64,000 nucleotides of DNA from Micromonospora vinacea (GTDB lineage: Bacteria > Actinomycetota > Actinomycetes > Mycobacteriales > Micromonosporaceae). Position numbers and translations under genes: made by a program. Location: NCBI RefSeq assembly GCF_015751785.1, contig NZ_JADOTY010000001.1, positions 5,456,001 to 5,520,000 on the forward strand, in the 5' to 3' direction. The notes beneath the pieces were generated by a model. The model saw nothing but the letters and a program-made list of their open reading frames with translations, ran no database searches and was not told the DNA's origin. Of this stretch, positions 45,076-63,531 are shown piece after piece (positions within the stretch are counted from its first letter, which is position 1; every line of letters begins with the position of its first letter).

Positions 45076-45197
45076 ATCGTCCTTTCGGTCCGAGTGACAA
45101 AGCCGATCTTCGCACTCGGTTGGGCCACCTGCACACGGAGGCCGCCGGGCGCCGGCACGGGCACCCGCGAGGCCACCTCGCCGGTCATCATGAGCGG

Positions 45198-46751: not shown

Positions 46752-46766
46752 CAGTGGTTCAGCCGG
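46744..46766. terminator. Hairpin at convergent stops
   Basis: CCGGCTG (46744-46750) pairs with CAGCCGG (46760-46766), spanning the stops at 46751 and 46759. Confidence 0.45.
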
Positions 46767-47241
46767 CTCCGCTGGTCAGCCAGGCCTGGATGCCGACCAG
46801 GGCCTCGGGGCCGGAGGTGGCGTCGACGTCGCGGGCGAGATCGGCGATCGTGACGGCGGCGAGCGCCTGACGCCACGCGTCCTCGGCCGCCCACATCGCG
46901 CGGGCGACCGGGCACGGCGTGGTGCAGGCGTCGGCCGGGGTCGCGAACGGGCCGCGCTGGCGGATCTCGGTGCAGACGAAGGTGGGGCCGGGCCCGTCGA
47001 CGGCCCGGACCACGTCGAGCAGGGTGATGCTCTCCGGTGCGCGGGTCAGCACGTAACCGCCCGACTTGCCCTGCACGGAGTGGATCAGGCCGGCGCGGGC
47101 CAGTGACTGGAGCTGCTTGGCGAGGTAGCTGCTGGAGACGTCGTGCAGTTCCGCCAGCTTGGCCGCCGGAACGGGCGTGTTGCTGGCGGTGAGCACCACG
47201 CAGCAGTGCAGCGCCCACTCGACCCCGCCGGACATCTTCAT
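46759..47241 (-). CDS. Rrf2 family transcriptional regulator
   Basis: A 160-aa winged-helix protein of the Rrf2 family. HTH: AAKLAELHDVSSSYLAKQLQSL; wing: QGKSGGYVLTRAPESITLLDVV. Three Cys in FVCTEIRQRG and ACTTPC match the Fe-S cluster ligands of IscR/NsrR/RsrR-like sensors, so it may respond to redox or nitric oxide. It is divergent from an NAD-binding oxidoreductase gene, and two perfect palindromes lie between them (47265-47314). Confidence 0.92.
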   Translation of the reverse strand: MKMSGGVEWALHCCVVLTASNTPVPAAKLAELHDVSSSYLAKQLQSLARAGLIHSVQGKSGGYVLTRAPESITLLDVVRAVDGPGPTFVCTEIRQRGPFATPADACTTPCPVARAMWAAEDAWRQALAAVTIADLARDVDATSGPEALVGIQAWLTSGAG

Positions 47242-47264
47242 GACGTCACCCTAGTCACCCCGTT

Positions 47265-47314
47265 ACTCGGACTCATTGTGTCCGAGTATAGTTCTCGGAC
47301 AAGAAAGGTCCGAG
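47265..47314. promoter_or_regulatory. Two palindromic operators, Rrf2/oxidoreductase intergenic region
   Basis: ACTCGGAC-N7-GTCCGAGT (47265-47287) and CTCGGAC-N7-GTCCGAG (47294-47314) have the same arms and spacer; centres are about 28 bp apart. A TATAGT hexamer between them could be a -10 box. This fits autoregulation by the Rrf2 protein plus control of the divergent gene. Confidence 0.8.
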
Positions 47315-47367
47315 TATCGGCTGAACCTCAGCGGTCGGACCTGACAGTCACGGGAAGGTGCATGGTT

Positions 47368-48108
47368 ATGAAGATCGCCGTACTGGGCGGGACCGGCCTC
47401 ATCGGGTCGCAGGTCGTCAAGATCCTGCAGGCCGCGGGTCACGAGGCGGTGCCGCTCTCGCCGTCCACCGGGGTGGACCTGCTCACCGGGCAGGGCCTGG
47501 CCGACGGGCTCGCCGGCGCCGAGGTCGTGGTCAACCTGACGAACTCGCCGACCTTCGACGAGGCCTCGCCCGCCTTCTTCCAGACGACCATGGACAACCT
47601 GCTGGCCGCCGCCGCCCGCGCGGGCGTCGGCCACGCGGTGATCCTCTCCATCGTCGGCGTCGACCAGGTGCCCGACCTGGACTACTACCGCGCCAAGACC
47701 CTCCAGGAGGAGATCCTCACGGCCGGTCCCATTCCGTACTCGATCGTCCGCGCCACCCAGTTCTTCGAGTTCGTCGAGGCGATCCTGTCCTGGACGGCCG
47801 ACGACACCACCGTCCGACTGCCCAGCACGCCGGTGCAGCCGATGGCCGCCGCCGACGTGGCGCAGGCCGTCGCCGAGGTCACCATGGGCGCGCCGTTGCA
47901 GGGCATCCGCAACGTCGCCGGGCCCGACGTCTTCGCGCTCGACGAGCTGGGGCGGATCACCCTCGCCGCAAGCGGTGACCAGCGCACCGTCACCACCGAC
48001 AACACCGCCGGCATGTTCGCCGCCGTGTCCGGTGATGTCCTCACCGGCTCCGACGACGCCGTCATCGCACCCACCGCCTACCGGGAGTGGCTCGCGCGCC
48101 GGGCCTGA
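47368..48108 (+). CDS. NAD(P)-binding atypical SDR (NmrA-like)
   Basis: A 246-aa Rossmann protein. GGTGLIGSQVV (residues 7-17) binds the dinucleotide, and YYRAKTLQEEIL holds the Tyr-x-x-x-Lys-like pair, weakly conserved as in NmrA/atypical SDRs. Such proteins sense redox state or reduce quinones. ATG 47368 is preferred over 47362 on spacing from GGAAGG. It is divergent from the Rrf2 regulator, which together resembles the RsrR-RsrN-type pair of streptomycetes, where an Rrf2 Fe-S protein controls an NmrA-like gene. Confidence 0.9.
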   Translation: MKIAVLGGTGLIGSQVVKILQAAGHEAVPLSPSTGVDLLTGQGLADGLAGAEVVVNLTNSPTFDEASPAFFQTTMDNLLAAAARAGVGHAVILSIVGVDQVPDLDYYRAKTLQEEILTAGPIPYSIVRATQFFEFVEAILSWTADDTTVRLPSTPVQPMAAADVAQAVAEVTMGAPLQGIRNVAGPDVFALDELGRITLAASGDQRTVTTDNTAGMFAAVSGDVLTGSDDAVIAPTAYREWLARRA

Positions 48109-48117
48109 GCAGGCACA

Positions 48118-48163
48118 CCCCCGCGTCTCGCGGCGGCGATCGACCGCCGCCGCGACGCGCGGG
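48118..48163. terminator. GC-rich hairpin terminator
   Basis: A stem of about 15 bp (CGCGTCTCGCGGCGG with CCGCCGCCGCGACGCG, one bulge) lies just after the oxidoreductase stop at 48108. Confidence 0.6.
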
Positions 48164-48237
48164 TACGGCGATACCGTGCTCTCGGCCGTATCCCCGAGTT
48201 GCGTCTCTGACCAGGGCGCCAGCCGGCGCAGGGCCGG

Positions 48238-48810
48238 TTACTGGCGCATCGTGCTGATCCCGGCCCGCCATTCGCTCGCCAGGATCGCGAAGACGAGCTG
48301 GTCGGCCCACTCCCCCTGGAACAGGTAACTCTCGACATGGCGGGCCTCCTGGCGCATGCCGAGTCGCGTCATCATCCGGGCCGACGCGGCGTTGCGCGCG
48401 TGGCACCGACCGTAGACCCGGTGCAGCCCGACCTCGGCGAACCCCCAGTCCAGCAACGCCGTGGCGGCCTCCGTCGCCAACCCGCGACCGCCGTGGTCGG
48501 GGTGGAAGACGAACCCGAGTTCGGCGGTACGGTCCAGTTGGCCGCGCCACACCAACTCCACGATTCCGATCACCCCGGCGTCGGTGACCGCGGCCACCGT
48601 CAGGCAGTCACCCTCGGCGCGCCACGCGTCCTCGCCCGCCATGGCGAGCACCGACGCCCGCGACTGTTCACGGGTACGCGGCTCCGCCCCGAGCATCCAG
48701 CGCACCACGTCGGGTCGGCGCTGAAACGCGTACACGTCGTCGAGGTCGTCGATCGTGACCGGGCGCAGGACGAGCCGTGCGGTGCGGATCGGGTAGGTCG
48801 GCTGGAACAT
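48238..48810 (-). CDS. GNAT family N-acetyltransferase (RimJ/RimL-like)
   Basis: A 190-aa acetyltransferase. RTARLVLRPVTIDDLDDVYAF opens the fold, VFHPDHGGRGLATEAATALLDWG is the acetyl-CoA block, and RCHARNAASARMMTRLGM is the RimJ-type block. ATG 48810 shares a base with the stop of the upstream MFS gene, indicating coupled translation. Substrate unknown; a modified and exported compound would fit the neighbour (inference). Confidence 0.9.
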   Translation of the reverse strand: MFQPTYPIRTARLVLRPVTIDDLDDVYAFQRRPDVVRWMLGAEPRTREQSRASVLAMAGEDAWRAEGDCLTVAAVTDAGVIGIVELVWRGQLDRTAELGFVFHPDHGGRGLATEAATALLDWGFAEVGLHRVYGRCHARNAASARMMTRLGMRQEARHVESYLFQGEWADQLVFAILASEWRAGISTMRQ

Positions 48811-50132
48811 CACGCGATCGTAGAGACCCGCGCGGGGCGCTCCGGTGCCGGCCGATCGGTGTCCTGGCGTCGGGGCAGCAGCAGCGGGCTCGCGAGGATC
48901 AGCAGCCCGGCGACCGTGATCGCCGTGCGGGGGCTGGTGGCCTGCGCGAGCAGCCCACCGAGCGCGCTGAGGATGGCGATGGCCGCGCTGCTGCCGATCG
49001 ACCAGGCCGACAGGGTTCGGACGATGCGGTCCTTCGGAGTCTGTTCCAGGCGGTACGTGGCGAGCACCGGGTTGTACAGGCTCATGCTGATGATGATCGC
49101 GAACTCGACGGCGATCACGGTGGCAAGACCGACCACGCCGGGTTGGACGACGGCGAGGCCGATCAGCCAGATCGCGCGCAGCGTGCCCACGGCGCGGATG
49201 ATCCGGTGTTGGCCGTAGCGCGCCACCACCCGACGGGCCAGACGTGACCCGATGAGACCGCCGACGCAGGGCACGGCGAAGGCGAGGCCGTACTGCCAGG
49301 GCGGAAAACCCAACTCACCGAGCAGGAGTACGGCCAGCAGCGGCTCGGTGGCCATGATCAGTCCCGCGACGAGCAACTGGTTGAGGTAGAGCGCCCGCAG
49401 GCCGGGGTGGGTGAGCAGGTGCCGCCAGCCGTCGAGCAGCTCACCGGCCCGGACCCGGGCCGCGCCGGTGCGCCGGGGGTGGTCCTCCTCGTGGCCGCGA
49501 ATGGCCGCGAGGCCCAGCGCCGAGAGCAGGTAGCTGAGCGCGTCGGCCACGATGGTGACGACCGGCCCGAACAGGCCGACCGCGGCGCCGCCCAGCGGTG
49601 GCCCGAGCGCGATCGAGCTCCAGGTGGTCGACTCGAACCGCGCGTTCGCCACCAGCAGGTCGTCCGGCCGCACGAGGGCCTTGAGGAAGGCGCCGCTGGC
49701 CGCGTTGAAGGCGATCCTGGCGGTGGCGACCACGGCCGAGACGACAAGCAACTGCCCGAAGCTGAGCCGGCCCAGCGCGTACGCGACGGGAATCGTCAGC
49801 AGGACCGCGAACCGGGCCAGGTCCATCGCGATCATCACCTGGCGCTTGCGGTGGAACTCCACCCACGGCCCGAGCGGCAACGCGATCAGCGCGCCCACCG
49901 CCGGCCCCAGCGCGGCCAACACGGACACCTGAGCGGGGCTGGCCTGCAACACCAGCACGGCGATCAGCGGCAACGCGCCGAAGCCCAGTCCCGAGCCGTA
50001 GGCGCTGACCGCGTACGACGCCCACAACCATCCGAACCGCCGACCCAGCGATCGCCTCGCGGACAACCCCACACCTCCCGCTCCCGACAACTCGTCGTTG
50101 ACCGCCGCGATCAAAGCAAGGTCAGTGACCAT
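48810..50132 (-). CDS. MFS transporter, multidrug-exporter-like
   Basis: A 440-aa, 12-helix major facilitator. LWASYAVSAYGSGLGFGALPL begins helix 1, and PWVEFHRKRQVMIAMDLAR replaces the usual GxxxDRxGRR loop. FNAASGAFLKALVRPDDLLVANARFESTTW is typical of MFS_3 exporters. It is divergent from the broken LysR gene (start 50195). The regulator was its likely controller, so expression is probably altered now. The GNAT gene follows with a one-base overlap. Confidence 0.92.
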   Translation of the reverse strand: MVTDLALIAAVNDELSGAGGVGLSARRSLGRRFGWLWASYAVSAYGSGLGFGALPLIAVLVLQASPAQVSVLAALGPAVGALIALPLGPWVEFHRKRQVMIAMDLARFAVLLTIPVAYALGRLSFGQLLVVSAVVATARIAFNAASGAFLKALVRPDDLLVANARFESTTWSSIALGPPLGGAAVGLFGPVVTIVADALSYLLSALGLAAIRGHEEDHPRRTGAARVRAGELLDGWRHLLTHPGLRALYLNQLLVAGLIMATEPLLAVLLLGELGFPPWQYGLAFAVPCVGGLIGSRLARRVVARYGQHRIIRAVGTLRAIWLIGLAVVQPGVVGLATVIAVEFAIIISMSLYNPVLATYRLEQTPKDRIVRTLSAWSIGSSAAIAILSALGGLLAQATSPRTAITVAGLLILASPLLLPRRQDTDRPAPERPARVSTIA

Positions 50133-50140
50133 GGATCAAA

Positions 50141-50177
50141 CAACCGGTTGAGCGGCGCGGCACAACCAGAGGTTGTG
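50141..50177. promoter_or_regulatory. LysR-type operators left in place
   Basis: CAACCGGTTG (50141-50150) and CACAACC-AGA-GGTTGTG (50161-50177) are perfect palindromes in the 62-base gap between the MFS start and the LysR remnant start. They share a CAACC half-site and fit a LysR autoregulatory region. Confidence 0.6.
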
Positions 50178-50194
50178 TCGGTAGGGTTCGTCGG

Positions 50195-50242
50195 GTGAAC
50201 CTCGACGCCGTCCGCACCTTCGTCGCCGCCCTCCGGGGTTGA
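50195..50242 (+). pseudogene. LysR regulator, N-terminal remnant
   Basis: GTG 50195 encodes VNLDAVRTFVAA, the standard first residues of LysR regulators of the LDAVRTFVAVAD type, then loses homology and stops at TGA 50240. The rest of the HTH is missing. A 7-bp palindrome (50234-50248) sits at the break. The effector domain of the same kind of protein resumes at about 55237. Confidence 0.75.
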
Positions 50243-50248
50243 ACCCCG
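50234..50248. repeat. Palindrome at the LysR break point
   Basis: CGGGGTT-G-AACCCCG, a perfect 7-bp inverted repeat, lies exactly where LysR homology stops and HAD hydrolase homology begins. Confidence 0.5.
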
Positions 50249-50427
50249 AACCGACATGGATGATCGGTAACTCGCCGAAGTCCGACATCATCCCGGCCCG
50301 TCAGGCCGGCTAGAATGCCGTGTTCATCCCCAACGAGCACACCTGGGCACTCGAGCACGACGAACTCGACCCCAACGACAAGGTCCTGCAGCTACGTACG
50401 TTCAACGACCTGCTGGAGCACTTCTGA
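50249..50427 (+). pseudogene. HAD family hydrolase, C-terminal remnant with amber codon
   Basis: One frame reads WMIGNSPKSDIIPARQAG, TAG at 50311, NAVFIPNEHTWALEHDELDP and LQLRTFNDLLEHF, stop 50425. GNSPKSDIxPA is HAD motif IV context and the ending is typical of a YjjG-like HAD hydrolase group. Motifs I-III are absent and the amber codon replaces a residue between Gly and Asn. Its final A is the first base of the NUDIX start. Confidence 0.75.
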
Positions 50428-50855
50428 TGACCGAACAGAACGCGAAGGATCGCGCCCCGGCGGTCTCCTGCGTATTTGTCTGCCACGACGGCTCAGGACG
50501 AGTGCTGCTCGCCCGGCGCAGCTGCGGCGCCCGCGACGAGCCAGGGACCTGGGACACCGGCGCGGGAGCACTGGAGTTCGGTGAGACCTTTGAAGCCGCC
50601 GTCAGCCGGGAGGTCCGGGAGGAGTACTCCACACAGCCGCTCGACATCACCATCCTCGGTGTACGCAATGTGCTGCGCGACGACCCACCCTCGCACTGGG
50701 TCGCCGTGACCTTCGCCGTACGAGTCGACCCGACCACGGTCGCTATCGGCGAACCGCACAAGTTCGACGAACTCGGCTGGTTCACCGCCGACGCCCTACC
50801 CGAACCGGCGCACTCGCAGTTACTGCCCACGCTGGCCTTGCTTTCCAACGGATGA
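50427..50855 (+). CDS. NUDIX hydrolase
   Basis: A 142-aa NUDIX-fold protein. The NUDIX box GALEFGETFEAAVSREVREEY (about 49-69) has the full Gx5Ex7REUxEE pattern, so metal and diphosphate hydrolysis should work. FVCHDGSGRVLLARRS and ELGWFTADALPEP are the flanking strands. ATG 50427 overlaps the HAD remnant stop by one base; the two were once an operon. Substrates could be nucleoside di/triphosphate derivatives. Confidence 0.93.
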   Translation: MTEQNAKDRAPAVSCVFVCHDGSGRVLLARRSCGARDEPGTWDTGAGALEFGETFEAAVSREVREEYSTQPLDITILGVRNVLRDDPPSHWVAVTFAVRVDPTTVAIGEPHKFDELGWFTADALPEPAHSQLLPTLALLSNG

Positions 50856-51091
50856 CACGGGCCCAGTCCACGAGTGATGCCCATCGAAACCACCCATCGA
50901 CTGCAGGACTCGCATAGCGCAAAGCTTGCCTGATGCCGCCGCGTCGCCGGCATCAGACTCCGAGAACACGAGCCTCTCGTCGCATGGGGGACCGCGCCCA
51001 CGCGTCGCTGCCAGCCACGCACGACGCTTAGACCCGTGCTGGAATGTCGCCGCCGTTTCACACCCCACGCGCGGTGGCCGTTGCCGTCGAC
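50856..51091. other. Gap with no recognised gene
   Basis: Short open frames exist on both strands but none has a ribosome site, coding bias or a family pattern. Base composition is less GC-rich than the surroundings. Nothing else is seen. Confidence 0.4.
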
Positions 51092-51286
51092 TCAGAGATG
51101 GCCATAGCCTCCGGCCTGACTGGCGGTCCGGGTGCCGAACATGAGCATGCGTCGTCCGAGCTGACGTGCGGCATCCTCGACGGTGGACGTCAGTCTGGCG
51201 GCGTGGCCGTCAGCCTGCCAGCCGAGTCCTTCAGCACTAGTTTCGGCAAGATCGTTGGTCACCAGGCCTGTAAGCCAAGTGGGCAT
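51092..51286 (-). CDS. Possible 64-aa protein downstream of the carbon-nitrogen hydrolase
   Basis: ATG 51286 begins one base after the stop of the carbon-nitrogen hydrolase gene, so reinitiation is possible. The 64-residue product (MPTWLTGLVTNDLAETSAEG at the start, RRMLMFGTRTASQAGGYGHL at the end) has no recognised domain and moderate coding bias. It may instead be a degraded fragment. Confidence 0.35.
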   Translation of the reverse strand: MPTWLTGLVTNDLAETSAEGLGWQADGHAARLTSTVEDAARQLGRRMLMFGTRTASQAGGYGHL

Positions 51287-51287
51287 G

Positions 51288-51968
51288 TCAGGGCAGGTCG
51301 GTCACGACCACCTCACCCGGCGTGGCGCCGGCCTGCGCGATGACTGTACCGTCCGGCGCCCAAAACCCGGAGCCACCCGCAGTCAACAGCGGCCCGTCCG
51401 GCCCCGCGCCGCAGGACAGCACCACATGCATCCGGTGCGTAATCGCACGCGCGTGCATCCGCGCATCGCGCGGGTCCGTAGGCGAGTTGAGGGTGCTCGC
51501 AACGTATGCGTCGGCGCCTGCCGTGACCGTCGCGGCCGCATGCTCGGCAAGCGAGGCGTCCCGGCAGATCGCCAGCCCGAGCCGTCGCCCGTCGAGGTCG
51601 AGCACGACGTGCTCGTCGCCCGGAGTAAACCGCTCGTCCTCCGGGGGGTGCAGATGGATCTTCCGATAGGCCACCGTCACGCTCTCGCCGTCGACCAGCA
51701 ACGTCGCGATGTAGGCGTGGCCATCAGCATCAGCGAGCGGCGCGCCGACCAACGCGACCGCGTCGGCATCAGCGCACGCCGCCACGATCTGTACCAGTCG
51801 CGGATCGTCGCAAGTCAACGCTGGCGCGTCGAGGTTGTACCCCGTCAGCGACAACTCCGGGAACACCACCAGCCTCGCCCCTGCCGTACGCACGATCTTC
51901 GCATGAGTGGCCACGTTCGCGGCGACGTCGTACGCCACGACCGCAGGCTGAGCCACGGCGATGCGCAA
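51288..51968 (-). CDS. Carbon-nitrogen hydrolase (nitrilase superfamily)
   Basis: A 226-aa amidase of the nitrilase superfamily. The Glu-Lys-Cys triad is visible: FPELSLTGY (about E38), YRKIHLHPPEDERF (about K103) and LAICRDAS (about C139). TTG 51968 is the likely start because GGAGGAAG lies just before it and the family begins RIAVAQPAV. Members hydrolyse amides or nitriles; substrate unknown. It is shorter than the usual 260-280. It lies inside the foreign segment that splits the LysR gene. Confidence 0.9.
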   Translation of the reverse strand: MRIAVAQPAVVAYDVAANVATHAKIVRTAGARLVVFPELSLTGYNLDAPALTCDDPRLVQIVAACADADAVALVGAPLADADGHAYIATLLVDGESVTVAYRKIHLHPPEDERFTPGDEHVVLDLDGRRLGLAICRDASLAEHAAATVTAGADAYVASTLNSPTDPRDARMHARAITHRMHVVLSCGAGPDGPLLTAGGSGFWAPDGTVIAQAGATPGEVVVTDLP

Positions 51969-52086
51969 GGCTTCCTCCACAAGCTGGCCGACCGGCAAGA
52001 TCCAAACTCTAGACCACTTGCGTACGCTCCACCGCAACGAGCAGACGGACCCCAGGGTTGAGGAAGATTCGCACAGGAATTAACGC

Positions 52087-52330
52087 TAAGGACCAGCTCG
52101 GCGCGCTCGGCCTCGTGCTCAACGCCGTGGTGCTCTGGAACACGCGCTACATCGACTTGGCCGTCAAGGTATTGCGTGGGCAGGGCTACCCGGTTCGCGA
52201 CGAGGACGCCGCCCGGTTGTCGCCACTGGCGTACGCGCATATCAACATGCTGGGCCGCTACACCTTCCCCGCCCCGTCGGCCGAGCAGCGAATCCGCCCG
52301 CTGCGCGACCCGGACGCCCAGGACGGCTGA
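52087..52330 (+). pseudogene. Tn3 family transposase, C-terminal remnant
   Basis: The frame from about 52087 to TGA 52330 encodes DQLGALGLVLNAVVLWNTRY, VRDEDAARLSPLAYAHINML and GRYTF, the conserved end of Tn3-family transposases. The rest of the roughly 1000-aa enzyme is absent, with stop codons upstream. No 38-bp terminal repeat was recognised. A TTG at 52058 opens the frame but is not a natural start. Confidence 0.85.
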
Positions 52331-52500
52331 TGCGGGCCTGCGGCGAGGCCGCCCGCGACCGGCCCCGCGACCTAGCCGGCGACTGGCGGCTCGGCGCCTG
52401 GCTGGCCTACTGGGCGGCGGTGGCCGAGTGCGACGAGTTCGGCGTCACCATCCAGCTCACCCGCAGCAGGCCGACCAACTGCGCGACACCCCGCCAGCGG
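52330..52500 (+). pseudogene. Conjugative-element-type gene fragment
   Basis: ATG 52330 overlaps the transposase remnant stop. The frame has strong GC3 bias for about 45 codons (MRACGEAARDRPRDLAGDWR, then WLAYWAAVAECDEFG) and then loses it; the +1 frame continues with QQADQLRD, suggesting a frameshift near 52470. I recall similar small proteins in actinobacterial integrative conjugative elements, but this is uncertain. Confidence 0.35.
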
Positions 52501-52734
52501 GTGAGCCGCTGGCTTGGTAGTCCAGGGCAGCAAATGGAACGCGCGGTCGCTGATGTGGTCGGGAGCGTAGAGCGCCGTTGCGATGACGGTCAGGGCGGCC
52601 ACGGTCAGACCGACGTCCAGGACAGTGATCAGGATCGCCGGGTGGGGCCAGAGCAGCCACACGCCGACGTGCCCTGTTGCTGCGGCCGGACCGTACAGCC
52701 GACCGGCGCCAGGGCGGGTGCGAGTTCGCGTCAT
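52500..52734 (-). pseudogene. Truncated small membrane protein of ICE type
   Basis: ATG 52734 opens MTRTRTRPGAGRLYGPAAAT, then a helix (GVWLLWPHPAILITVLDVGL) and a second helix, and FHLLPWTTKPA. Proteins of this kind occur next to replication and spread genes of pSAM2-like actinobacterial ICEs. The frame stays open to 52372, but past about 52500 it runs through the opposite gene fragment, so the true C-terminus is lost at a junction. Confidence 0.5.
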
Positions 52735-52841
52735 GGCGGTAGGTTGCAAGAGGCCACCGCCGGTCCGGCACCCGGTTAGGACAAGGTCGGACCGCTGGGC
52801 GCGTCTTCGGCCAGATCAAGACGTCGGCCGCTGCACGTAAG

Positions 52842-52866
52842 GCGTGTCCGAAGGGTTCGGACACGC
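52842..52866. terminator. Perfect 11-bp hairpin upstream of the HTH protein gene
   Basis: GCGTGTCCGAA (52842-52852), GGG loop, TTCGGACACGC (52856-52866). It stands 42 bases before the ATG at 52909. It could end transcription entering from upstream, or form an mRNA leader hairpin or operator. Confidence 0.55.
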
Positions 52867-52908
52867 GGAACGCCATGAGGGCACGGCGGAAGCGGAGCGA
52901 AGCAGAGG

Positions 52909-54324
52909 ATGCGAGGGCCGGCGGATTTCGGGGCGGCGTTCACCGCGTTGCTGGAGGCGGCCGGGGCCAATCCCGACAGCGTGGTGCGGGCGCTGAACGG
53001 CGCGCTGTCGCGCAACACGCTCTACGACTGGAAGAAGGGCGCGCATCTGCCCAATGACACCCGGTTGCTGCTGCAGGTGGTGCATCTGTGCCTGCGACTC
53101 GCCGGAGCCGACACGGATCTACGCGGGGCACCCCGGGATGTCCGGGGGTGGCTCGACCTGCTGGCCGAGGCGAAACAGATCCGCGACAACCAGGCCGCAT
53201 GGTGCGTGTCCGCCTCTGGCCGGTCCTCGTTGAGGGGTCTGGACGACAGCACCCTGCTGAGTGCTGCGGCTTTCTTAGAAAACCAAGCGAAGTATTTCCT
53301 TGGAACATTGGGCAACCTGGTTGTGAGCCGGCGAGCCCGCGCCGATCAACTGCTTGGTCAACTGGCGCAGGCCCAGGACAGTCGTCAGACACCTCGGTGC
53401 GTGGCCAGACCCAAGATCCTTCCCGCCGGGGATCTGTCTGTTGCGTACCGGCATGTGGGCCTGCTCAGGGCGCACCGAAAAGCCCTGCTCGGGGTAGGCC
53501 GGGTCGATGAGCGTGTGCTCGACTCGATTTCGGCGCTGCGCGGGTTGCTGGAGGAGATTTACGGCGTGCGGATCGTCTTCCTCGGCGAGAAGGTGCTGGC
53601 TACCGGCAACGGTGGTCAGACACCGGGCGCCGCCGCGGTCGTAGCCAACCCCGATATCGACTTCGACCCGCGCATCCAGGATCCGATCATCACCACCACC
53701 AGAGTCCTGCCGGATCAGGGCAGGACCGTCATCGTGGCGGAAGGGAACCCTCCACAAGCCGTGGCCCCGAGCGGGTCGATTTTCGTTGTCACCGTGGAGG
53801 CCAGGGCACCGCGCGCCGTGATCCTGCACGGCGCGCGGGTCGTTGTGCTCTCCCGTCGGCCGCCGCGGCGAGCGTGCATGATCAAGGGTGTTGCGGGCGG
53901 ACTCGACGTCCGACGCTTCGATGTCGACCTCGACTGTGAGAACCCGCAGATGAGGATGCGGGGCGAACGCGACTTCCCCTTGACCGTCAGCCCTGACGAC
54001 CCCGAGGAGTTCTGGGTGCAGGCCGTCACGGCGGCGAACGAGATCACCTGGACCGTCGCCGTGGATTGGGTTGTGAACGGGATTGCCGGCACCACAATGG
54101 TCAACCACGCCGGCCCTCCGTTCAGCCTGTACCCGGTAGATCTCCTGATCGCTGAACCCGGCAAGCAGTCCCTGCGCACATCATGTGACTACGGCGCGCA
54201 TGAAGACGGCTGCCCAACGCTCACGCTGAAAAAACTGGGAGGATCGATCGGTGCGTTCTCGTCGGAGCGCGGTCCCGAGTTCACCGGAATCAGCGCTCTT
54301 CGTGACATGCTCCGGGGCGGCTGA
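52909..54324 (+). CDS. HTH protein with C-terminal beta-sandwich-like domain
   Basis: A 471-aa protein with three parts. Residues 1-65 are HTH-like: FGAAFTALLEAAGANPDSVV, then SRNTLYDWKKGAHLPNDTRL, where NTLYDWKKG fits a recognition helix. The middle (about 90-260) is helical with RDNQAAWCVSASGR and LLEEIYGVRIVFLGEKVLAT. The end (about 340-430) reads RRFDVDLDCENPQMRMRGER, DFPLTVSPDDPEEFWVQAVT and WTVAVDWVVNGIAGTTMVNH, a beta-rich domain I associate with conserved actinobacterial HTH proteins. Function unknown. It is intact within otherwise decayed foreign DNA. Confidence 0.75.
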   Translation: MRGPADFGAAFTALLEAAGANPDSVVRALNGALSRNTLYDWKKGAHLPNDTRLLLQVVHLCLRLAGADTDLRGAPRDVRGWLDLLAEAKQIRDNQAAWCVSASGRSSLRGLDDSTLLSAAAFLENQAKYFLGTLGNLVVSRRARADQLLGQLAQAQDSRQTPRCVARPKILPAGDLSVAYRHVGLLRAHRKALLGVGRVDERVLDSISALRGLLEEIYGVRIVFLGEKVLATGNGGQTPGAAAVVANPDIDFDPRIQDPIITTTRVLPDQGRTVIVAEGNPPQAVAPSGSIFVVTVEARAPRAVILHGARVVVLSRRPPRRACMIKGVAGGLDVRRFDVDLDCENPQMRMRGERDFPLTVSPDDPEEFWVQAVTAANEITWTVAVDWVVNGIAGTTMVNHAGPPFSLYPVDLLIAEPGKQSLRTSCDYGAHEDGCPTLTLKKLGGSIGAFSSERGPEFTGISALRDMLRGG

Positions 54325-54334
54325 CCGCACCCTG

Positions 54335-54371
54335 TCATGCACGGGATAACAGCTTATTATCCGGTACATGC
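54335..54371. other. Candidate tyrosine-recombinase core site
   Basis: Arms 54335-54349 and 54357-54371 form a 15-7-15 inverted repeat with 12 of 15 matching positions; the inner 6 (GGATAA/TTATCC) are perfect. This is the architecture of recombinase core sites (two arms around a 6-8 bp crossover region). It lies 107 bases before the integrase pseudogene. A second copy of the right arm, TTATCCGGTACAT, is at 54435. Confidence 0.5.
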
Positions 54372-54434
54372 GCGGTGAGGTGATCCACGTGGACTGCTGT
54401 GGGCACCTCGGCCCGGCTGCGCGACTCGCGCACG

Positions 54435-54447
54435 TTATCCGGTACAT
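54435..54447. repeat. Second copy of TTATCCGGTACAT
   Basis: Exact 13-base copy of 54357-54369, 78 bases downstream, just before the integrase start. It may be an arm-type binding site. Confidence 0.5.
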
Positions 54448-54477
54448 CGCCGGGCCGGTGCGGCAGAAGTCTGGGTC

Positions 54478-55206
54478 GTGAAGAACGGTGTGACGGTCCG
54501 GGTCGCGGTCGACCGGTTCCTCGGCTCGGCCCGGTGCCGCAACCCGAACACCCGCCGCGCCTACACCGGGGTCCTCGACCGGCTCGCCGGGCACCTCGAC
54601 CCCGGACGGGAACTTGCCGCCACCACAGGGCAGGACATCGCCGACGCCATGGCCGTGCTGACCCGCCGTGACGTGCCACTGCGGGAGAAGACGCTGTGGC
54701 GGATGCTGTACGAGACCTGCGCCCGCGCTGGCGAGATCCTCGCCCTCGACATCGCTGACCTGGAACTGGAGGCCCGCCGCGCCAAGGTGGTGTCCAAGGG
54801 CGGGGCGGTCGAATACGTGTACTGGGCCTCCGGCACTGCCCACCTGCTACGCGGTCGGACGGCCGGGCCGGTGTTCCTGTCCGAACGCCGCCCCGGCCCG
54901 GCCCGCCGCCCGGCGGCGAGGGACCTGCGCCCGGCCACTGGACGGGCCAGGTTGGGCTACGACCGCGCCCGGGTACTCCTGAACCACTAGACCTCACCCG
55001 GGCCGGGCCTGCCCGGCTAGGACCTACACCAGCTACGGCACTCTGGCGTCACCCACCTCGGCGAGGCCAACGCCGGCCTGCAACTGATCATGGCCAAGGG
55101 TGGGTGGCGTAACCCCCGCACCGCCATGGGCTACGTCAGGCCCGGCGCGTCCGCCGTCGCCGAGGTCACCGAACTACTCGACATCACGCCGCCTCGACGC
55201 AGCTGA
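54478..55206 (+). pseudogene. Tyrosine integrase with two in-frame TAG codons
   Basis: From GTG 54478 the frame encodes a core-binding domain (RVAVDRFLGSARCRNPNTRR) and the first catalytic block with Arg (YETCARAGEILALDI). It meets TAG at 54988 and TAG at 55018, then continues in the same frame with LHQLRHSGVTHLGEANAG, MAKGGWRNPRTAMGYVRPG and stop 55204. The HxLRH, GGW (replacing GH) and Tyr motifs are all in the part after the amber codons. A stretch of about 15 codons between them is Pro/Gly-rich and not homologous. It cannot give full-length product without suppression. Confidence 0.85.
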
Positions 55207-55236
55207 GCGGACCTACCCGCGTACCACCGCGCGCCA

Positions 55237-55807
55237 GTGGCGCGCGCCGACGCCTCCGTACGCCCCGGTCGACGGGCGCTGCGCGTCGACGTGCACAGTC
55301 GACGGATCGCCCCAGCGGTGCTGCTCCAGGGCTTCCACCGCGCGCATCCCCGCATCGAGCTGGACGTCGTCACCCTCGACGCCGACGTGCACGCGGCAAT
55401 GGCTGCCGTCGAGGCGGGGACGGTCGACGCCACCTCCCACGCCGTCACCGTCGCCGCATGGCACCTGCCCGCCGCGATCCGAACCACCCGCGTGATCGAC
55501 GAGCACCACGAGTTGCTCGTCGGCCCCCGCCACGCCCTTGCCAACGCCCGCACCGTCACGCCCGCGCAACTCGCCGAGCACCGCATCTGGGTGCCCGGCA
55601 TGGCCCGCGGCACCGAGCGGGCCGACTACTACGACGAACTCGCCGCCGCCTTCGGTCTCACCATCGACCTGATCGGGCCGGTCTTCGGCAACGAGGCGCT
55701 GCTGGCCGAGATCGCGCAGCTGGCCACTGCGCGCACTGCGCGACTACCTCGACTCCCGGCGAGCACAGGCACCCGACATGGAGGTCTGGCTGCCGCACTG
55801 GGGATAG
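55237..55807 (+). pseudogene. LysR regulator, effector-domain remnant
   Basis: From about 55237 the frame gives ADASVRPGRRALRVDVHSRR, HRAHPRIELDVVTLDADVHA and RIWVPGMARGTERADYYDEL, a LysR substrate-binding domain. Near 55735 the frame shifts at a tandem CACTGCGCG repeat, and the +1 frame continues LRDYLDSRRAQAPDMEVWLP and ends at TAG 55805. About 40 residues are missing at the shift. It is the other part of the gene begun at 50195, now separated by about 5 kb. Confidence 0.8.
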
Positions 55808-55854
55808 CCGCGCGATGGCTCGGCGTGTTGACACGCGTTCATCCGGCACTACAT

Positions 55855-55870
55855 TTAACGTGTTGGTTAA
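55855..55870. promoter_or_regulatory. Inverted repeat before the ArsR gene
   Basis: TTAAC (55855-55859), 6 bases, GTTAA (55866-55870) lies 17 bases before GTG 55887, in a short AT-rich stretch. It fits an ArsR-type operator overlapping the promoter. Confidence 0.5.
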
Positions 55871-55886
55871 GTGACTGGAGGCTCTG

Positions 55887-56297
55887 GTGTCGGGCAGCGA
55901 TCAACTCAGCGCGGTGTTCTCGGCGCTCGCCGATCCGACTCGACGGGCGATTCTCGCCGAGTTGGCCGACCGCGACGCCACGGTCACCGAGCTCACCGCT
56001 CCCCTCCCGATCTCGATGCCGGCGGTGTCGCGGCACCTGAAGGCGCTCGAGCGCGCGGGCCTCATCTCACGTACCCGGTCGGGGAAGTTGCGGATGAGTC
56101 GCATCGAGGCCGCCCCACTGCGCGAAGCGGCCGAGTGGATCGAGCGCTACCGGCGGTTCTGGGACACGTCCCTCACCCGCCTCGACGCCCACCTCGCGGC
56201 CGTGCAGGCCGCCGGTCGCCCAACGGACCGAACGGCCCACGGCCCGGCGTTGCCCGACAGCGAATCCCCGGGCAAGTCTCACGACAAGGAGAATTGA
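55887..56297 (+). CDS. ArsR family winged-helix regulator
   Basis: A 136-aa regulator. SALADPTRRAILAELADRDA and ISMPAVSRHLKALERAGLIS are the ArsR HTH blocks. No metal-binding Cys motif is seen, so it belongs to the non-metal group that pairs with SRPBCC proteins. GTG 55887 lies behind an inverted TTAAC repeat. Its TGA shares a base with the ATG of the SRPBCC gene, and the RibD-like reductase follows, so three genes form one operon. Confidence 0.92.
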   Translation: MSGSDQLSAVFSALADPTRRAILAELADRDATVTELTAPLPISMPAVSRHLKALERAGLISRTRSGKLRMSRIEAAPLREAAEWIERYRRFWDTSLTRLDAHLAAVQAAGRPTDRTAHGPALPDSESPGKSHDKEN

Positions 56298-56785
56298 TGG
56301 ACAGGGACGACCCGCAAATCGTCATCTCACGCGTGGTGGACGCGCCACGGGACCTGGTCTACCGAGCTTTCACCGATCCCGACCACCTGGCGGCATGGTG
56401 GGGGCCGATCGGCAACTCGCTGCCCCGCGAGGAGATGGACTTCGACATCCGGCCCGGCGGCCACCAGCGGTGGACCGAACTCTTCCCGACCCAACCCGGC
56501 CTTCGAGTCGACGTCCACATCGACCTCACCGACGTCGCCGACGGCGAACTGATCGACGGCGTCGCGCACGTCACCGGGCAGCTGCCGGAGGGCATTGAGC
56601 CTCACGAGACAAGGATGCGGGTCGAGTTCCACGACGAGGCCGATGGACGGACGCGACTCGAGATCCGTCAGTGGCTCCCGGAACGGCTGGTTGGCCCTGC
56701 TGACCAGGGTTGGAACGAGGCATTCAGCAAGCTGGACGCGGCACTGACGAATGCCCACCCCATCGCAGTCGACGTGGAGGTATAG
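56297..56785 (+). CDS. SRPBCC domain protein (AHSA1-like)
   Basis: A 162-aa START-like protein of the AHSA1/SRPBCC group. ISRVVDAPRDLVYRAFTDPDHLAAWWGP opens the helix-grip fold and QGWNEAFSKLDAAL is the C-terminal helix. These proteins bind hydrophobic ligands in a cavity; the ArsR-SRPBCC pair is widespread, and its role is mostly unknown. It overlaps the ArsR stop by one base and precedes the reductase by 6 bases. Confidence 0.93.
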   Translation: MDRDDPQIVISRVVDAPRDLVYRAFTDPDHLAAWWGPIGNSLPREEMDFDIRPGGHQRWTELFPTQPGLRVDVHIDLTDVADGELIDGVAHVTGQLPEGIEPHETRMRVEFHDEADGRTRLEIRQWLPERLVGPADQGWNEAFSKLDAALTNAHPIAVDVEV

Positions 56786-56791
56786 CGCGCC

Positions 56792-57352
56792 ATGGCCAAG
56801 CTAATCTACGTGACGAACGTGTCCCTCGACGGTTACATCGAGGACGAGCACGGCAGATTCGACTGGACCCCACCCGACGACGATTACTTCGCGTTCGTCA
56901 CCGACCTGGTCCGGCCCATGGGCACCTACCTCTACGGCCGGCGCCTGTACGAGTCGATGGCCGTCTGGGAGACCGAGCCCGCCCTCGCCGCGCGATCGAA
57001 GCTCACTGCCGACTTCGCCGACGTCTGGCAAACGGCGGACAAGATCGTCTACTCCACCACGCTGGACACGACCTTGACCGCCAGGACCCGGCTCGATCGG
57101 AGCTTCGACCCCGCTTCGGTACGCGCCATCAAAGCCTCGGCCACCAGTGACCTCACCATCGGGGGCGCACACCTCGCGGCGCAGGCATTCCAAGCCGGGC
57201 TGATCGACGAGTGCCACCTGCTGATCCATCCCATCCTCACCGGCGGAGGCAAACCCGGGCTGCCCAGCGGCACCCGCCTCGACCTGGAGCTACTGAGCAC
57301 CCGCCGATTCAGCAACGGGGTGGCCTACCTGCACTACCGCGTCAGCACCTGA
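56792..57352 (+). CDS. Dihydrofolate reductase/RibD C-terminal-like protein
   Basis: A 186-aa protein of the DHFR/RibD-C fold. KLIYVTNVSLDGYIEDEHGR starts the fold, LYGRRLYESMAVWE and SDLTIGGAHLAAQAFQAGLI hold the NADPH-binding pattern, and ELHL-like DECHLLIHPILTGGG follows. Such stand-alone proteins (YyaP/YqjY type) have unknown substrates. It is the third gene of the ArsR operon, followed by a perfect hairpin at 57361. Confidence 0.92.
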   Translation: MAKLIYVTNVSLDGYIEDEHGRFDWTPPDDDYFAFVTDLVRPMGTYLYGRRLYESMAVWETEPALAARSKLTADFADVWQTADKIVYSTTLDTTLTARTRLDRSFDPASVRAIKASATSDLTIGGAHLAAQAFQAGLIDECHLLIHPILTGGGKPGLPSGTRLDLELLSTRRFSNGVAYLHYRVST

Positions 57353-57360
57353 GACGGTCA

Positions 57361-57398
57361 TCGGCGTCACCGACCCGGACATGTGTCGGTGACGCCGA
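57361..57398 (+). terminator. Hairpin terminator of the ArsR-SRPBCC-reductase operon
   Basis: TCGGCGTCACCGAC (57361-57374) pairs perfectly with 57385-57398 around a 10-base loop, 8 bases after the stop. Confidence 0.75.
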
Positions 57399-57464
57399 CC
57401 GGGCCACCGAGCGGGCCCGCCGACGTCGTTCGACGAGGCTGAGGGACGTGGGTACGGTGACAGC

Positions 57465-57926
57465 GTGCTCTCGGTCGTGAAGGGTCTGTCCCGGTACCAC
57501 ACCGAGGAATCGCTACGCGCCCACCTGCTGGAGCGCTCACACCGCACCGAGGACGGCTGCCTGATCGTCGAAGGTTACGGGCGGCGACGCGGGGTGCACC
57601 AGAAGGTCGCCGGTCGCGCGTGGGCACACATCGCCGCGTACGTGGTTTTCGTCGGTGGGTACGACCCCGCCCTCGACGTCGACCAGACCTGCGGCGTCGC
57701 CGACTGTATCGAGCCGACACATCTGCGCCAGCTCAGCCGGGCCGAGGCCTGCCGCAGCCGGACCCAGCCGGCACAGTGCCGCAACGGTCACGACCGTGAG
57801 CTCGACCCGGCGACCGGCCGGTACCGCCGGGTCTGCCGGACCTGCAACCGGGAGGCCCAGCGCCGTTGGCGTGAACGCGAGGCCGCCGAGGTGGCCCAGG
57901 CCCGCGCCGCGTACGGCCGCTCGTAA
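57465..57926 (+). CDS. HNH endonuclease-like protein
   Basis: A 153-aa protein. HIAAYVVFVGGYDPALDVDQ, then TCGVADCIEPTHLRQLS, matches the HNH_3-type zinc/nuclease region (usually HR-A...V-H-C...CVNP-HL). Here the first catalytic His is replaced by DQTC, so nuclease activity is doubtful. A later CxxGH and CRTCNREAQRRW pair suggests a zinc ribbon as in phage and intron HNH proteins. GTG 57465 is the start. It may be a domesticated mobile-element protein. Confidence 0.75.
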   Translation: MLSVVKGLSRYHTEESLRAHLLERSHRTEDGCLIVEGYGRRRGVHQKVAGRAWAHIAAYVVFVGGYDPALDVDQTCGVADCIEPTHLRQLSRAEACRSRTQPAQCRNGHDRELDPATGRYRRVCRTCNREAQRRWREREAAEVAQARAAYGRS

Positions 57927-57928
57927 TC

Positions 57929-58012
57929 TCAGCCCTTCTCCTGGCAGCGCACCGTCTGCTCGACTCGGCCGTCGGCGAACTCGACAGTGGTGGCACTCGC
58001 GCTCGGTCCAGA
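57929..58012 (-). pseudogene. Possible C-terminal gene remnant
   Basis: Minus-strand reading of this stretch gives ASATTVEFADGRVEQTVRCQ EKG and a stop at 57929, with good GC3 bias and natural amino-acid use, directly behind the HNH-like gene. Upstream of about 58012 the frame runs into the ArsR operator and start. It looks like the end of a gene removed when the ArsR-ArsC locus arrived. Family unknown. Confidence 0.35.
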
Positions 58013-58015
58013 CCG

Positions 58016-58031
58016 ATCAATCTGATTTGAT
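58016..58031. promoter_or_regulatory. ArsR-type operator ATCAA-N6-TTGAT
   Basis: ATCAA (58016-58020) and TTGAT (58027-58031) form a perfect dyad 14 bases before the ArsR-ArsC fusion start, matching the ATCAA/TTGAT half-sites of known arsenical and metal-sensing ArsR proteins. Confidence 0.65.
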
Positions 58032-58045
58032 GTATCTTCGTGGTC

Positions 58046-58813
58046 ATGGGGCCACCGAGTCACACCGCGCCGCCGTTCGTCCGGCTGGCCGCACACCCGC
58101 TGCGCTGGCAGATGCTGACCGAACTCGCCCGCAGTGACCTGCGGGTCCGCGAACTGGCCAGTCTGCTGGCCCAGCCGCAGAACCTGGTCTCCTACCACCT
58201 ACGGCTGCTGCGCGACGGCGGCCTGGTCACCGTCACCCGCAGCAGCTTCGACGGCCGCGACAGCTACTACCACCTCGACCTCGACAGCTGTGCCCACGCG
58301 CTGGCGGGCACCGGCACCGCTCTGCACCCCGCCCTGCAGTTGGGCGGCCCTCCACCTGCCCCGCCGGTCCAGCCGCCGCGAACCGTGCTGTTCGTGTGCA
58401 CGGGCAACAGCGCACGTTCCCCCATCGCCGAAGCCCAGCTCCGACGCCACACCGCCGGTCACGTGCAGGTGACCAGCGCAGGAACCCGCCCCCGAGCGCA
58501 GCTACACCCCCATGCCGTGCGGGTGCTGCGCGACCACGCCGGCGTCGACGTCGCGGACCGTCGCCCGCGGCACCTGGACACGCTCACCGGCCACCGCTTC
58601 GACTACGTGATCACCCTGTGCGACAAGGCCCGAGAGGTCTGCCCCGACTTCGGAAACCCGGCCGGCCAGCTGCACTGGAGCATCCCCGACCCCGCCGCAG
58701 CCGGCACCCGGGACGACTATCCCGCCTTCCTGCAGGTTGCGGCCGACATCGACACCCGCGTGCGGCATCTGCTGCCCGTCCTCGCCACCGAACCCGAGGA
58801 GACCACACCATGA
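58046..58813 (+). CDS. ArsR-ArsC fusion: HTH regulator with arsenate-reductase-like phosphatase domain
   Basis: A 255-aa fusion. Residues 1-85 are an ArsR HTH (FVRLAAHPLRWQMLTELARS, LLAQPQNLVSYHLRLLRDGG). A Pro-rich linker (about 88-110) leads to a low-molecular-weight phosphatase domain with CTGNSARSP (C at about 117; the Cx5R loop). ITLCDKAREVCP supplies second and third Cys that could relay disulfides as in thioredoxin- or mycothiol-linked ArsC; the Asp is in WSIPDPA. It would both sense and reduce arsenate. ATG 58046 follows an ATCAA-N6-TTGAT operator. The VOC gene overlaps by 4 bases. Confidence 0.92.
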   Translation: MGPPSHTAPPFVRLAAHPLRWQMLTELARSDLRVRELASLLAQPQNLVSYHLRLLRDGGLVTVTRSSFDGRDSYYHLDLDSCAHALAGTGTALHPALQLGGPPPAPPVQPPRTVLFVCTGNSARSPIAEAQLRRHTAGHVQVTSAGTRPRAQLHPHAVRVLRDHAGVDVADRRPRHLDTLTGHRFDYVITLCDKAREVCPDFGNPAGQLHWSIPDPAAAGTRDDYPAFLQVAADIDTRVRHLLPVLATEPEETTP

Positions 58814-59211
58814 GCACAGCCGAGCAGTACGTCAGCGTCCGTTACCTCGTCGACGACGTGCACGCCGCCGTCGACTTCTACACCGCCCACCTCGGTTTTC
58901 ACCTCAAGACCAGCGCCGCCCCCGCCTTCGCCGACGTGGTCCGCGGCCCGCTACGACTGCTGCTGTCCGGACCCGCCAGCTCCGGCGCCCGCGCCACTCC
59001 GGACGACGCCACCAGCCCCGGCCGCAACCGAATCCACCTCATCGTCGACGACCTGGACGCCGAGATCGACCGACTCCGCGACGCCGGCCTGGCGTTCCGC
59101 AGCGAACTGGTCTCCGGGCCCGGCGGCCGTCAGATCCTGCTCGCCGACCCCGCCGGTAACCTCATCGAACTTTTCCAACCCGCGGGCGACGCCGCCCCCG
59201 CCAACGCCTGA
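58810..59211 (+). CDS. VOC family protein linked to ArsR-ArsC
   Basis: A 133-aa glyoxalase-like protein. VRYLVDDVHAAVDFYTAHLG and RNRIHLIVDDLDAEIDRLRD begin the two modules, and LLADPAGNLIELFQP is the end with metal-binding Glu. Members beside ars genes can act on organoarsenicals (ArsI C-As lyase), but ArsI needs vicinal Cys that are absent here, so another role is more likely. ATG 58810 overlaps the fusion gene stop (ATGA), giving coupled translation. Confidence 0.9.
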   Translation: MSTAEQYVSVRYLVDDVHAAVDFYTAHLGFHLKTSAAPAFADVVRGPLRLLLSGPASSGARATPDDATSPGRNRIHLIVDDLDAEIDRLRDAGLAFRSELVSGPGGRQILLADPAGNLIELFQPAGDAAPANA

Positions 59212-59554
59212 ACCCAGCCGCACTTCGCCGCCCCTGGGCCTGCGGGTCGATCACCGGCCGGACGTTCGCCCCGCGTACACCATCCTCGGTCGTTACGCAC
59301 AAGAACTGTCATTATGGTGCGTGGGCGGTTCGCACCTTTTGTGGCAGGTATTTACTGGATTATTGATAATGACAATGTAGTAATCCGTTGAAGGAGCCGG
59401 ACTCGAGCGAGAACGGCGCCGAGGTCCCTGCCTCAACTGCGCGCGAGGCCCGCGACCCGCGCGTTCCTCCAACGGGTGGTTCGACGGAAGGCGCTACGGG
59501 CGCCCTGCTGACCTGGGAAGCCGTGAGAGCTGGTCGTGCGGGTGCTGCTGCCGG
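59212..59554. other. Intergenic stretch with AT-rich dyad
   Basis: No gene is supported. About 59290-59395 is unusually AT-rich for this window. GGATTA (59357-59362) and TAATCC (59381-59386) form an inverted repeat around ATTGATAATGACAATG-type sequence, which could be a promoter, operator or recombination site. A TTG-led frame at 59388 behind no clear ribosome site runs into the monooxygenase gene on the other strand and is not convincing. Confidence 0.4.
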
Positions 59555-60673
59555 TCAGGACGGCTGGACGTGGTCGAAGAGGGCGAGGGCTTCGGCAGGG
59601 TCCGGACTCACGAGGCGTTCCAGACCGGCCATCGTGATTTTCGCCCACCTGCCGGCCCGTTCACACATCCGTTCCTCGAAGGCACAGACGGCGGCGTCCA
59701 GATCTTCCGGGTCGGCAGCGATGGACTCCGCGAGCTCGGCACCGTCCAGCATCGCGAGGTTCGCGCCTGCCCCCAACGGTGGCATCAGGTGGGCGGCGTC
59801 GCCCAGCAGCGTCACCCCGCGGACGTGGGCCCAGGTGTGGGATTCGGGCAGGACGTAGAAGGGGCGGTGGACGAAAGCGGTGCCGTGACCGACCAGGTCG
59901 AGGACGGGAGCGGCCCAGCCGTCGAACAGAGCCAGAAGGCCCGATCGCACTGCCTCGGCGTCGGCCAGGTCCAGGCCCGCGTGCCAGTCCAGCGGCGCGC
60001 GGAACTTGGCGTACACCTTGACGTGACCGCCGCTGTTGCGCTGGGCGACGAGAGATCGGTTCGCGCCGTACACGGCCACCGAACCGTCGCCGATCACCTG
60101 TGCGAGGTCAGGGTGGCGGGTGTCGATGTCGTCGAGGGAGGTCTCGACCGAGGTGACGCCGGTGTAGTGCGGCGTCACCGACGAGACTGCCGGGCGGACC
60201 CGGGACCAGGCACCGTCCGCGCCCACCACGAGATCGAACGTCTCCTGCCGCCCGTCCGCGAAATGAACAAGTACGCCATCCCCGGTCCCCGGCGCCACCT
60301 GCACCACCTCTCGCCCCCACTGCACGTCGAGAGGGTCGAGCAGCAGGTCACGGAGTTGCCCGCGGTCGATCTCCGGGTTGGCCCGCTCATCCGGACCAGG
60401 CTGCCAGTCCCGCAGGACGGTCCCAGCAGCGTCCAGGATGCGCATGGCCTGCCCCTCGGGACGGGACAGCGCCTGGAACTCTGCCAACAGCCCCGCCTTG
60501 TCCAGTGCCAGCTGGCCCATCCCTTCGTGCAGGTCCAGCGTGCCGCCTGGGGGGCGGGAGTCGGGCGCGGGATCGCGTTCAAGGACGGCGACGGGGTAGC
60601 CGTGGCGGTGCAGGACACGGGCAAGGGTGAGTCCCCCCGGGCCGCCGCCGACCACAGCGATACGATGTCTCAT
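59555..60673 (-). CDS. FAD-dependent monooxygenase (TetX-like)
   Basis: A 372-aa class A flavoprotein monooxygenase. IAVVGGGPGGLTLARVL binds FAD, VVGADGAWSRVR is the DG motif and LLGDAAHLMPPLGAGANLAM is the GD motif. The layout is that of TetX/PgaE-like hydroxylases, which use NADPH and oxygen on aromatic compounds, sometimes tetracyclines. ATG 60673 touches the palindrome shared with the divergent TetR gene; no ribosome site is visible, so the mRNA may be leaderless or an upstream start is used. The TetR protein probably represses it. Confidence 0.92.
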   Translation of the reverse strand: MRHRIAVVGGGPGGLTLARVLHRHGYPVAVLERDPAPDSRPPGGTLDLHEGMGQLALDKAGLLAEFQALSRPEGQAMRILDAAGTVLRDWQPGPDERANPEIDRGQLRDLLLDPLDVQWGREVVQVAPGTGDGVLVHFADGRQETFDLVVGADGAWSRVRPAVSSVTPHYTGVTSVETSLDDIDTRHPDLAQVIGDGSVAVYGANRSLVAQRNSGGHVKVYAKFRAPLDWHAGLDLADAEAVRSGLLALFDGWAAPVLDLVGHGTAFVHRPFYVLPESHTWAHVRGVTLLGDAAHLMPPLGAGANLAMLDGAELAESIAADPEDLDAAVCAFEERMCERAGRWAKITMAGLERLVSPDPAEALALFDHVQPS

Positions 60674-60674
60674 G

Positions 60675-60691
60675 GCGATACAGCGTATCGC
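60675..60691. promoter_or_regulatory. TetR-type palindrome
   Basis: GCGATA-CAGCG-TATCGC is a perfect 17-bp palindrome between the divergent FAD-monooxygenase (start 60673) and TetR (start 60727) genes. Confidence 0.8.
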
Positions 60692-60726
60692 GCTCTGACG
60701 ACGCATCGCCACGGTAGGGAGTGACC

Positions 60727-61419
60727 ATGACTGTGTGGGACCGGCCGGAGCCGCCGAATCCCCCCGTGCCGCTCGACCGGGAGCAGGTCATCGCCGCCTC
60801 CATCGCGCTGGCCGACGAGGGCGGGCTGGAGGCGGTGTCGTTGCGCAAGGTCGCCGCCCGGCTGAACGCCGGCCCGATGCGGCTGTACGGATACATCTCC
60901 ACGAAGGACGAGTTGTTCGACCTCATGGCCGACGAGGTCTACGCCGAGATTCTCCCCGGGGAGCGACCCGATGACTGGCGGGAGGCGCTGCGCATCCTCG
61001 CCCACCGGACCAGGCAGGCCGCTCTGCGTCACGAATGGCTGGCTGACCTGCTCGGCGGCCGCCCGACCCTGGGCCCCAACGGCTTCGCCGTGACCGAGGC
61101 CAAGCTGGCAGCCCTCGACGGCCTCGCCGATATCGACACCGTCCTGCGCGCCGTGGAGACTGTCAGCGCCTACTGCACCGGCGCGATCAGGCGCGAGATC
61201 GCGAACCTACGGGCCGAACGCGCCACGGGCCTGTCCAAGCGCGACTGGCAGCGCGCCTCCGGCCCCCACGTGACGAAAATGTTGGCCACGGGCCGCTTCC
61301 CGGCGCTGACCAAGGCCCTGCACGACGGCACGGAGGTGGACGCCGAGACGTCCTTCGCGACCGGCCTGGACTGGGTCCTCGACGCCGTGGCCGCCAAACT
61401 CACCCGACCGCCGGCGTGA
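60727..61419 (+). CDS. TetR family transcriptional regulator
   Basis: A 230-aa TetR with the TetR_C_1-type ligand domain. HTH: SLRKVAARLNAGPMRLYGYI. The effector domain (about 80-225) has HEWLADLLGGRPTLGPNGF and ETSFATGLDWVLDAV, as in regulators of antibiotic or aromatic-compound genes. TAGGGA lies before ATG 60727; GTG 60721 is an alternative. It is divergent from the TetX-like gene and the palindrome at 60675-60691 is its likely site. Confidence 0.93.
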   Translation: MTVWDRPEPPNPPVPLDREQVIAASIALADEGGLEAVSLRKVAARLNAGPMRLYGYISTKDELFDLMADEVYAEILPGERPDDWREALRILAHRTRQAALRHEWLADLLGGRPTLGPNGFAVTEAKLAALDGLADIDTVLRAVETVSAYCTGAIRREIANLRAERATGLSKRDWQRASGPHVTKMLATGRFPALTKALHDGTEVDAETSFATGLDWVLDAVAAKLTRPPA

Positions 61420-61432
61420 CCCACTCGCCCGC

Positions 61433-63334: not shown

Positions 63335-63531
63335 GCGGTGAGTCTGCCAGCATCCACAGAACGCCATGCGATCCCTCCGCTGCCGGATCGACGCACCGGC
63401 GAGTTCCCGTTGCGAGTGGCGAGGCATGATGTCCTCATGGACGCGTCCGCCAGCCATGGCGCGAGCGAGAACGGCTCGTCGCCGCCTGAGCCGCGTGTCT
63501 TCCGCAGCCGGGGCAAGTAGAGCGTGACCTG

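Follow-up and report, generated by a model that had tools for sequence, protein, structure and literature searches.

Among described systems, those closest to the protein reported here each share part of its domain order. Actinobacterial nSTAND1/NACHT ATPases, such as the nSTAND1 protein with WD40 repeats at L055 8331-11678, have the same type of N-terminal helix-turn-helix (HTH) domain, but the protein has neither their P-loop ATPase nor their WD40 repeats. The HTH_31-TM-Ig proteins P0001 and P0002, encoded on Streptomyces plasmids, likewise combine an N-terminal HTH with the same Ig-like domain at the C-terminal end. Unlike our protein, they have a transmembrane (TM) segment and cysteines in the Ig domain, and they have no middle module. 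RodZ-like HTH-TM-beta proteins also place a TM segment between the HTH and the beta domain, whereas no such segment is found here, where the top 19-residue hydropathy before the domain is 1.2. The AGS-C Ig-like domain of Pycsar EcPycC (9ard) is an Ig-like sandwich that realigns with the C-terminal domain at Z 6.4 over 101 residues, a score tied with those of many unrelated Ig/FN3 folds; there is no cyclase, and the likeness is by fold alone. Surveys of conflict systems (PMC7159879, PMC8195603) describe a comparable logic, with ATPases to which adaptor domains recruit sensors and effectors, and keywords found no domain matching our modules in those two texts.

The gene (52909..54324, + strand) lies in a 64-kb stretch of Micromonospora vinacea DNA, hereafter the window, from a 7.34-Mb genome assembled as a single contig. 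It runs from an ATG at 52909 to a TGA at 54324 and encodes 471 aa without internal stops. The three codon positions have G+C contents of 0.695/0.496/0.782, the pattern of a coding gene, which holds over the whole length. In first-order Markov simulations matched in composition, a frame of such length was open by chance in only 5e-5 of trials. Overall G+C (0.657) is slightly below that of six neighbouring genes measured (0.667-0.731). The preliminary description of an intact HTH-protein gene without frameshift is borne out by these values. The three regions, HTH-like, helical, and beta-rich in turn, also lie where it had placed them. The full-length AF2 model is helical up to residue ~218 and forms strands from 220 onward, although it is of low confidence outside the C-terminal domain and too weak for further use.

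The whole protein had no match in Pfam, NCBIfam, PADLOC, PDB sequences, or PHROGs. In Pfam no family was hit at E<=1, so no Pfam HTH domain is present, and none of the PADLOC anti-phage defence models was hit at E<=10. A P-loop ATPase domain is absent, as judged from Pfam and, by inspection, from the lack of a GxxxxGK[ST] motif. As a lone query against genome contigs, the protein found nothing. We encountered neither a single known fold with an established function nor homologues that were ordinary XRE regulators.

The HTH module spans residues ~6-95 (52924..53193, +). Despite the lack of a Pfam match, its homology to HTH_31-like domains is supported by a custom profile of nine related HTH domains, against which residues 1-99 scored 33 bits (E 6e-9), the best of 2000 shuffles reaching 14.6 bits. 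With a score this far above the shuffled controls, we assign the module to the XRE/HTH_31-like domains, as a divergent member of the kind found at the N-terminus of actinobacterial nSTAND1/NACHT ATPases. One member of the profile, the L055 protein, is nSTAND1 by Pfam, and pairwise resemblance extends to the N-termini of the L050, L040, L047, and L043 proteins, classed as nSTAND1- or NACHT-type ATPases by inspection. When the N-terminal half was used as a query, most matches were due to chance; those that withstood scrutiny were the HTH heads and a single small protein. The AF2 models of the HTH and middle modules are of low confidence.

The relatives of the helical middle (residues ~112-233; 53242..53607, +) came to light through a weak plasmid match that led to P0005, a 176-aa Streptomyces protein whose gene is directly upstream of a NACHT-type ATPase gene. 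P0005 relatives in the window's taxonomic family (L064-L071) and class (L056) form a clear protein family, three ~180-aa members of which had no match in a Pfam scan. Against a ten-member profile of these small proteins the window protein scored 24 bits (E 3.7e-6), while the best of 2000 shuffles reached 7.5 bits. In the alignment (A7), the stretch LLEEIYGVRIVFLGEK singled out in the preliminary description falls on the small-protein motif LLEAVYGQRFTFRGE, and six columns are invariant with the window row included. At a score well above shuffled controls, the middle is thus assigned as a shortened copy of an uncatalogued family of ~180-aa proteins often encoded beside P-loop (STAND-like) ATPase genes. 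P0005 and the L064-L071 proteins share the module with its motif, but they stand alone and retain a C-terminal beta-rich part; the window copy lacks that part and ends without the last ~60 residues of the family. When the A7 profile was searched in 296 genomes of the phylum, with the best 11 candidates per genome scored, only the window itself was recovered, which is part of the profile; at that depth of scoring, the negative result carries little weight.

At L051, L085, L086-L087, and L090 the neighbours of the small gene are of NACHT/NPHP3_N type, and three of the P-loop ATPase-matching neighbour genes of L085, L086, L087, and L090 carry WD40 repeats; at L091 the small gene adjoins an ORF bearing a P-loop motif. 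The small-protein gene of L051 occupies 3872-4402. No ATPase neighbour was seen at 2 of the 10 small-protein loci examined, and L088 showed no P-loop ATPase gene beside the small gene. The window copy differs from the P0005-like loci, since no P-loop ATPase neighbour was seen among the ORFs of 44000-64000. By inspection, no ATPase gene was recognised among these ORFs, part of which were scanned against Pfam, nor were the MoxR and vWA genes that mark the MoxR-vWA ternary conflict systems (PMC7159879).

The C-terminal module, an Ig-like beta-sandwich at residues ~260-414 (53686..54150, +), is uncatalogued in Pfam and NCBIfam. We sampled 251 genomes of the taxonomic family, and tblastn found relatives in 31 of them; nine Streptomyces plasmids also carry the domain. 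Three aligned members used as a query against contigs returned three relatives only, viral contigs gave one chance match, and phage records gave no match. Profiles of both uncatalogued modules (middle and Ig-like) had no match among PDB sequences. The N-terminal parts of the Ig-like members differ widely, and most have a TM segment before the domain; the L061, L062, and L063 members have soluble helical parts ahead of it. P80 and W110 (A1 numbering) never vary in 25 aligned members, and the window domain retains the family-conserved positions, these two included. The TM-free members (window, L013, L062, L063, and L055) group with L003 with support of 94/99, and the window copy belongs to this soluble clade.

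The AF2 model of this domain, built from four sequences, is all-beta with a core pLDDT of mostly about 70-88. Foldseek with the model gave no match at E<=1e-3, and the best rows after structural realignment were Ig/FN3-like: TRAP-alpha (Z 8.0), POLDIP2 (7.8), ApaG (7.3), and AGS-C of Pycsar (6.4). Because Z values of 7-8 may mean only a common arrangement, we claim no kinship to TRAP-alpha, POLDIP2, or ApaG.

A second Ig-like member, identified by profile match and membrane anchored, is encoded in the window at 41047-41979 (+), its start overlapping the 3' end of a different gene for a membrane protein (39777-41060); the two copies in the window are the only ones found in the genome. Five congeners share the 41047 gene at 80-90% conservation, and it has therefore occupied its present place for longer than the insertion described below. 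Another member (L090 13784-14356) is encoded some 3 kb past a small-protein/ATPase pair, and L090 is the only locus, besides the window fusion, at which both uncatalogued families were seen close together. At L052 5170-6537 (NZ_CP085174.1), an open frame with an HTH profile match runs upstream of the annotated start; the 280-aa protein as annotated may thus be an HTH-TM-Ig protein that has lost its N-terminal part to the choice of start.

The HTH gene sits in a strain-specific insertion (50234..55215) across which three congeners (G670, G661, and G658) join the flanks. In each of them, on one contig, the flanks align at ~91-93% up to 50230-50233 and from 55216-55239, and are separated by about 165-190 bp, versus ~5 kb in the window. 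As ~5 kb is missing at the same site in three congeners, the HTH gene is accessory DNA, and the proposal that it is accessory cargo was well placed. From these alignments, the segment could be a gain in the window strain or a loss in the other congeners. In a DNA comparison with 60 other congeners, the HTH gene was covered by none of the matches listed.

Upstream of the gene, a Tn3-family transposase remnant (52058..52330, +) consists of the last 60-70 residues only, at the C-terminal end (PF01526 330-389 of 389; NF033527 891-954 of 954). Downstream, a truncated tyrosine recombinase/integrase (54478..54990, +) is cut short at 54990 and matches PF00589 over 4-79 of 172 only. Inside the insertion, a NUDIX gene (50427-50855) and a gene for a carbon-nitrogen hydrolase (51288-52037) match nearly complete Pfam domains. 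The earlier impression that everything around the HTH gene is broken is therefore right for the transposase and integrase but too sweeping for these two. The block carrying them (50235-52027) is found at 95-96% in a fourth congener (G667, L115 9766-11408), with the rest of the insertion missing; its presence there without the remainder indicates that the insertion was built stepwise. An imperfect direct repeat (TTATCCGGTACAT...) at 54357-54382 and 54435-54460, just ahead of the integrase remnant, may represent recombinase arm or attachment sites.

No protein joining all three modules was found elsewhere in 150 genomes of the family and 395 of the class, consistent with either a recent fusion or an uncommon protein type. 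As far as the sequences tell, the domain combination is new and its separate parts have relatives. The view that the architecture has no known name thus holds for the three modules together, but not for the parts, given the relatives of the Ig-like domain in 31/251 genomes and of the middle in the small-protein family. Recombination in the insertion could have joined three gene pieces into a stranded fusion without present function, whose frame would still be open because the fusion is recent. Such an origin would suit the remnant state of the mobile genes next door, the truncated middle module, the lack of a partner gene nearby, and the failure to find the full architecture in other genomes. 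However, the protein retains those residues that the Ig-like family conserves, the coding signature extends over the entire length, and two full-length genes persist inside the same insertion; we regard a functionless fusion as unlikely.

A perfect 11-bp palindrome with a 3-nt loop, GCGTGTCCGAA-GGG-TTCGGACACGC, is located at 52842-52866, 42 bp ahead of the start codon. Perfect arms of at least 11 bp with a loop of at most 6 occur at six places in the 64-kb window, this one included, and at none in three Markov sequences of equal length. No second copy exists in the genome at up to 3 mismatches. It may serve as an operator or, once transcribed, fold into a terminator-type hairpin. If it is an operator, the protein might be a one-component regulator with no role for a STAND ATPase: the HTH would bind the palindrome in autorepression, the middle would dimerise, and the Ig-like domain would receive the signal. 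The HTH profile match, the uniqueness and position of the palindrome, the annotation of HTH_31-bearing Ig-domain relatives as transcriptional regulators, and the absence of an ATPase gene nearby all speak for such a regulator. Its DNA binding is a prediction, however, the candidate site could also be a hairpin, and the relatives of the middle module are ATPase neighbours, not regulators. We therefore hold this explanation to be possible but on the improbable side.

Our preferred reading, which we put forward tentatively and at somewhat short of even confidence, is that the gene, carried as accessory DNA, encodes a soluble adaptor or switch that serves a signalling or conflict network of the STAND type (NACHT/nSTAND1). 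We favour it because the HTH resembles nSTAND1/NACHT heads, the relatives of the middle adjoin P-loop ATPases, the Ig-like clade is soluble, and the gene is accessory and coding. It is weakened by the lack of an ATPase nearby, the shortened middle, the failure to find another triple fusion, the low-confidence models of the HTH and middle, and the two of ten small-protein loci at which no ATPase neighbour was seen. In such an adaptor, the C-terminal domain, judging by its fold and soluble clade, would bind a cytoplasmic ligand, either a protein or another macromolecule. The helical middle would then dock on a STAND-like ATPase or oligomerise, as the gene context of its relatives suggests. The HTH would be the end that binds DNA or docks, and through it the protein may repress its own gene from the palindrome. 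Since STAND/NACHT-like ATPases accompany both this type of HTH and the middle module, the preliminary label of a sensor or defence regulator remains reasonable as a class. A broader and much more speculative idea, to which we give little credence, is that the small STAND-linked proteins and the window fusion form an undescribed adaptor layer of actinobacterial STAND ATPase systems, in which a common helical dock receives an HTH and an Ig-like sensor. The window gene would then be a mobile sensor cartridge that acts on a host ATPase in trans.

The fusion joins two modules that lie outside the searched Pfam, NCBIfam, PHROGs, and PADLOC models, namely, a helical module tied to STAND-like ATPases and an Ig-like domain that many membrane proteins of actinobacteria carry. 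Even if the gene is an orphan, both uncatalogued families would still be worth cataloguing. Should the middle act as a docking adaptor, the fusion would point to the component of a STAND ATPase system at which the signal arrives.
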